Shown here: piece after piece, positions 13,827 to 14,056 of the stretch
Numbering within the stretch: the stretch's first letter is position 1
How the letters are laid out: the number at the start of each line of letters is the position of its first letter
Assembly: GCA_001797815.1 (NCBI GenBank)
Contig: MGQK01000049.1
Coordinates: 10,891 to 24,946, forward strand
Direction of reading: 5' to 3'
Source of the DNA: Deltaproteobacteria bacterium RBG_13_61_14
GTDB lineage: Bacteria > RBG-13-61-14
Length of the DNA stretch: 14,056 nt
Position numbers and translations under genes: made by a program
Notes under the pieces: model-generated
Database searches by the model: none
The model's input: only the letters and a program-made list of their open reading frames with translations
What the model was told of the DNA's origin: nothing

Positions 13827-13855
13827 TTGACAAGCTTCGGAAAATCCTCTATATA
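13827..13855 (+). promoter_or_regulatory. Near-consensus sigma70 promoter for the candidate small RNA
   Basis: A perfect -35 TTGACA (13827-13832), a 17-bp spacer and TATATA (13850-13855, five of six) make this the strongest promoter in the window. Transcription should begin about 13862. Confidence 0.7.
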
Positions 13856-13861
13856 AAGAGG

Positions 13862-14027
13862 CACTAACGAAGTCAGCCAGAACCTTAACCAGGCCCTCAC
13901 GCCCTGTCCAAGAAAAGGGCAGAAAAGAGCACGGCAATGGAGAGGCCGCCGTCTCTAAATCAGGATCCCAGGATCCGCGACCAATCAAGCCGCATCATGG
14001 CCCAAAGAACAAAGTGCGGCTTTTTTT
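13862..14027 (+). ncRNA. Candidate structured small RNA or riboswitch-like leader, family not recognised
   Basis: From the predicted start at about 13862 to the T-run at 14027 is roughly 165 nt. A GCCCT/AGGGC hairpin (13901-13905 with 13916-13920) is nested in a stem formed by GGCCCTC (13892-13898) and GAGAGGCC (13940-13947). That outer stem competes with another: GAG-C-ACGGC (13927-13935) with GCCGT-CTC (13948-13955). A tandem CAGGATCC occurs at 13961-13976. The transcript ends in an intrinsic terminator. I do not recognise 6S, tmRNA, SRP RNA, RNase P or a known riboswitch consensus. An open frame from ATG 13937 runs to the window edge with no stop (40 codons), so a leader preceding a gene beyond the window is possible. 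Confidence 0.55.
13987..14027 (+). terminator. Intrinsic terminator with possible pseudoknot
   Basis: AAGCCGCA (13987-13994) pairs with TGCGGCTT (14015-14022), followed by more T residues to 14027. The 20-base loop contains GCCCAAA (14000-14006), which is complementary to TTTGGGC (14025-14031) just beyond the T-run. That can form a pseudoknot or a competing anti-terminator-like stem. Confidence 0.65.
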
Positions 14028-14056
14028 GGGCTGAAAATTTTTGCGGAAGATATCGG

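Follow-up and report, generated by a model that had tools for sequence, protein, structure and literature searches.

A multicopy promoter-to-terminator unit in Deltaproteobacteria bacterium RBG_13_61_14, a candidate 5' leader RNA of secreted repeat-protein genes

Among the described systems closest to the unit reported here are transcription-attenuating leaders and riboswitches, including the c-di-GMP-I (GEMM) riboswitches, which often precede genes encoding extracellular or surface proteins, and multicopy small RNAs (sRNAs) in a Qrr-like arrangement. The unit lies at the end of the window, the whole stretch of 14,056 nucleotides analyzed in this study (contig MGQK01000049.1 of Deltaproteobacteria bacterium RBG_13_61_14). 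It resembles attenuators and riboswitches in having its own promoter, a structured and conserved core, and a terminator shortly before a ribosome-binding site, as well as in occurring in several copies per genome ahead of related genes; it differs from them in being found in one genome only, in the putative nature of its switch, and in having neither covariation nor an Rfam match. Like GEMM riboswitches, it is present in several copies per genome before secreted-protein genes, but it yields no GEMM match at the gathering or permissive Rfam threshold. With Qrr-type sRNAs it shares the presence of several similar promoter-to-terminator units, whereas the units reported here are located shortly before genes and on the same strand. 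No account of a leader of this kind ahead of these secreted proteins was found in a literature search. Judged from its sequence, the unit on balance probably encodes a 5' leader RNA with its own sigma-70 promoter, which controls read-through into genes encoding large secreted repeat proteins.

All features of the window copy lie on the plus strand. The unit begins with a sigma-70-type promoter that can be read directly in the sequence (TTGACA-17-TATATA, 13827-13855), comprising TTGACA at 13827-13832, a 17-nt spacer, and TATATA at 13850-13855. The pattern TTGACA-16/18-TATWWW occurs once in the window, compared with 0.01 occurrences expected in Markov-shuffled sequence; a promoter scan requiring the -10 hexamer to end in T skips TATATA. 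The predicted non-coding leader transcript of about 165 nt (13861-14027) has its presumed start ~7 nt past the -10 hexamer. The fold of this 167-nt transcript has an energy of -50.3 kcal/mol (z = -2.5 relative to dinucleotide shuffles), and 4 of 200 shuffles were equally stable, which makes the excess stability of the leader moderate only. The transcript ends in an intrinsic terminator (13987-14027; AAGCCGCAT...GTGCGGCTT, then T7), composed of a 9-bp stem (13987-13995/14014-14022), a weak inner stem, and the T7 run at 14021-14027. The promoter and the terminator were thus found as given in the preliminary description, and its statement that the ~165 nt hold no clear gene agrees with the codon-position counts and broken frames presented below.

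Seven copies of the unit were identified in the genome, designated here by contig as C49 (the window), C82, C36, C96, C124, C31, and C22. In C31, a 124-nt near-perfect hairpin is inserted at approximately the position matching 13930, while C22 reaches only the start of a hairpin insertion of the C31 type, the remainder of the unit being missing; the six-copy alignment of the leader was made without the C31 insertion. Leader identity among the six copies is 79-93%. In the full alignment, mean pairwise identity rises from 38% in the 60-odd upstream columns to 71% in the promoter and 72% in the first leader bases, reaches 92% and 90% in the core, and then drops to 84% for the terminator and 62% for the sequence past it. 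Identity thus peaks in the promoter, core, and terminator, which indicates that what the copies retain is the promoter together with the transcribed unit, chiefly its core. CTTGACAA is the same in 7/7 copies, and the -10 hexamers vary (TATATA; CTTAAT, TTAAAT, and TTAAGT, by eye) with the spacing about kept. The copies in C49, C82, and C22 sit at contig ends, and their downstream DNA is absent from the assembly. The window itself ends with its contig at 14056 (contig position 24946; C49 of a 132-contig genome), so that its copy cannot be linked to a downstream gene; the counterpart in C31 of the post-terminator segment (14028-14056) runs on to GGAGGGG and the start codon (ATG) of a secreted-protein gene, and the window and C31 share 46 of 46 bases over 14011-14056.

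The conservation profile bears on a reading in which the promoter and 5' untranslated region were duplicated along with the secreted-protein genes and have no regulatory RNA function. Such passive spread would fit the dispersed intergenic repeats present in the genome in tens of copies, some of them adjoining leader copies, the disruption of two copies by the hairpin insertion, and the identity of the repeat upstream of C82 and C96 (84.5%), which is comparable to that of their leaders (83%). However, across all copies conservation is much higher in the core than in the flanks, and among the six copies variation is less frequent at paired than at unpaired columns (13/68 and 34/101 variable columns, respectively), and we regard this explanation as quite improbable.

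Two of the dispersed intergenic repeat families were observed in the vicinity of leader copies. The first, at L014:3845-3984 (C31), is ~140 nt long, comprises several tandem ~22-nt units (CAACCACCCCATTCTGCACGC...), and has about 25 further copies, 78-96% identical between places. The second, represented by L012:3413-4100 (C96, minus strand) and some ten similar sites, extends up to about 700 nt, is 69-85% identical, and lies upstream of some leader copies. The hairpin insertion at L014:4199-4322 has a folding energy of ~ -58 kcal/mol, and its arms resemble ACACAGAG-type repeats at other genome places; partial relatives of the C31/C22 insertion occur elsewhere in the genome.

The preliminary description had also proposed that competing stems form upstream of the terminator. 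Stem 1 (13892-13947), in which 13892-13898 pairs with 13940-13947 around a hairpin (13904-13909/13917-13922), is present in the RNAalifold consensus, and the alternative stem 2 (13926-13956), in which 13926-13935 pairs with 13948-13956, is present in the minimum-energy fold of the window copy. Since the loop of stem 2 contains the 3' arm of stem 1, the two stems are mutually exclusive. Across the cells of the six copies, pairing is kept in 97.6% for stem 1, 85% for stem 2, and 96% for the outer stem of the terminator, and a GGATC-CCAG-GATCC hairpin (13963-13976) is paired in 6/6 copies, with one U-G variant. Both stems can therefore be drawn, but the proposed switch between them gains no support from covariation, which had been named as a check: neither stem shows a compensatory (two-sided) change among the six same-genome copies, and the relatives contain no acceptable copy. 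With identities of 79-93%, the copies are too similar for the six-copy comparison to choose between stem 1 and stem 2. Imposing stem 1 on the fold requires 1.6-7.1 kcal/mol, against 0-3.7 kcal/mol for stem 2 in five copies and 16 kcal/mol in C124, so the favored stem varies from copy to copy. Inspection by eye revealed no antiterminator pairing with the terminator that is conserved across the copies, and neither core stem overlaps the terminator in a manner conserved across them. According to the preliminary description, the terminator loop can also pair with sequence beyond the T-run (GGCCCAAA with TTTGGGCT). By eye, this pairing can be seen in closely similar copies (the window, C82, and, in part, C31), but it is missing in C36 and C124 and is thus not a conserved feature.

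In three of the four copies with assembled downstream DNA (C36, C96, and C31), a secreted-protein gene follows shortly past the terminator on the same strand, with about 20-85 nt between the terminator and the start codon. The C36 T-run gives way to AATTCAGGAGGAGGATTGGGC-ATG, where the gene for a large signal-peptide protein starts (signal peptide assigned by eye), and AGGAGGAGG begins about 6 nt past the T-run, too close to leave room for a second promoter. In C96 and C31, ~80 nt past the T-run end in GGGAGGGGAAATCC-ATG, likewise of large signal-peptide proteins. According to Pfam, LVIVD and TSP3 repeats occur in the C96 protein and a MopE metal-binding motif in the C31 protein; TSP3-like stretches are common to the C36 and C31 proteins, and all three are members of a single paralogous family that recurs at about 20 places in the 4.7-Mb genome. 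A covariance model run over the surroundings of the other family members, some of whose upstream regions contain runs of N, gave one weak match (in C42) and otherwise nothing significant. Most of the paralogous genes are thus without a nearby leader, and the leader would serve a subset of the secreted-protein family. In the C124 copy, the next gene encodes a sulfatase-superfamily protein and is located ~170 nt away, with promoter-like sequence between; given this distance and the intervening sequence, the C124 copy need not be a leader.

The C124 arrangement, the complete promoter-to-terminator unit, and the drop in conservation past the terminator would all suit a multicopy trans-acting sRNA, in which the ~165-nt RNA would itself be the final product, termination would be unconditional, and nearby genes would rely on other promoters or leaky read-through. 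We consider an sRNA of this kind rather unlikely, as three of the four assessable copies stand shortly before the ribosome-binding site of a member of one gene family and C36 has no space for another promoter. Between the two readings left open by the preliminary description, leader or sRNA, the leader is better supported by the secreted-protein genes behind the terminators of C36, C96, and C31, although the switch it requires shows no compensatory change.

These three copies have the anatomy of an attenuator, namely a promoter, leader, and terminator 5' of a same-strand gene. Since the gene lies directly behind the terminator and C36 has no room for a promoter, read-through is needed, and from this we infer that termination is conditional; the position before ribosome-binding sites, the anatomy of the unit, and the conservation profile together favor a cis-acting leader with a conditional terminator. 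In the mechanism that we propose, transcription would start near 13862, the leader would fold, and RNA polymerase would by default stop at the terminator (13987-14027). A signal, which may be a small molecule, a protein, or another factor, would govern terminator formation through the highly conserved core (about 13880-13976). If no terminator formed, the gene behind it, which has its ribosome-binding site a short distance downstream, would be expressed. We infer transcription, conditional termination, and a secreted-protein gene behind the window copy too. More tentatively, the unit might represent a new riboswitch class or RNA-based attenuator restricted to a poorly sampled phylum, setting the expression of large TSP3/LVIVD-type secreted proteins. 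Should the terminator prove conditional, this uncultivated lineage would possess an undescribed RNA switch for secreted or surface proteins, whose seven natural variants could serve as a starting point for structural analysis; if the unit is not a switch, it still constitutes a clear multicopy promoter-to-terminator unit absent from Rfam.

Control of read-through by translation of the leader was also considered, with the frame from ATG 13938, the likeliest start codon, encoding a leader peptide or an in-frame N-terminal extension of the secreted protein. This frame runs stop-free into the main gene in C31 and C96; however, by eye it is broken in C36 and meets an early stop in C124, C31 and C96 are mutually frame-shifted between the terminator and start codon, and variable sites show no codon-position bias (8, 9, and 7). 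On the codon-position counts and broken frames, a protein-coding leader was rejected, and we consider this explanation highly improbable.

The earlier assignment of the leader to no known family held in an Rfam scan at gathering and permissive thresholds, in which no family reached threshold; the single permissive match, to a snoRNA (E 9.1), is attributable to chance, and by Rfam the leader contains no riboswitch aptamer of a described class. No tRNA or tmRNA was found near the copies. The phylum sample comprised three genomes, the two others belonging to the same order (TatC 56-57% identical), and blastn and covariance models of the whole unit and of the core recovered no acceptable copy in these two or in more distant genomes; a match in G002 (E 0.83), which appears to lie inside coding sequence (a SecA-like C-terminus, by eye), was rejected as chance. 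The reference genomes, in which the nearest relative by TatC is a 'delta proteobacterium' bin from lake sediment (54% identical), contained no match to a core pattern specifying 30 bases; because this pattern demands exact matches, diverged copies would escape it. Viral contigs searched by exact pattern, and plasmids and phages searched by blastn, gave no match, and the similarity edges differ from copy to copy, on which grounds a mobile genetic element was rejected. The element is so far known from one genome.

The weak match in C42 was not accepted as a further copy (E 0.16 genome-wide). At C42:16935-17126 (L133:936-1127), it corresponds to a second promoter-to-terminator-like unit with TTGACA-17-TAAAAT and hairpins, including a GCCGC...GCGGC stem enclosing a GGCC-GAAA-GGTC hairpin; the leader model gives this unit a weak score. 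Past a run of N, the next gene on the forward strand encodes another TSP3-family protein. This unit may be distantly related to the leader or resemble it by chance. A short 5' region of another kind (CTTGACTYGGTT...AAATCTTGGATYCAAGCGAAGGAGGAGCCAATG) is common to three further secreted-protein paralogues, at L124:180-270, L128:2500-2640, and L129 (minus strand).
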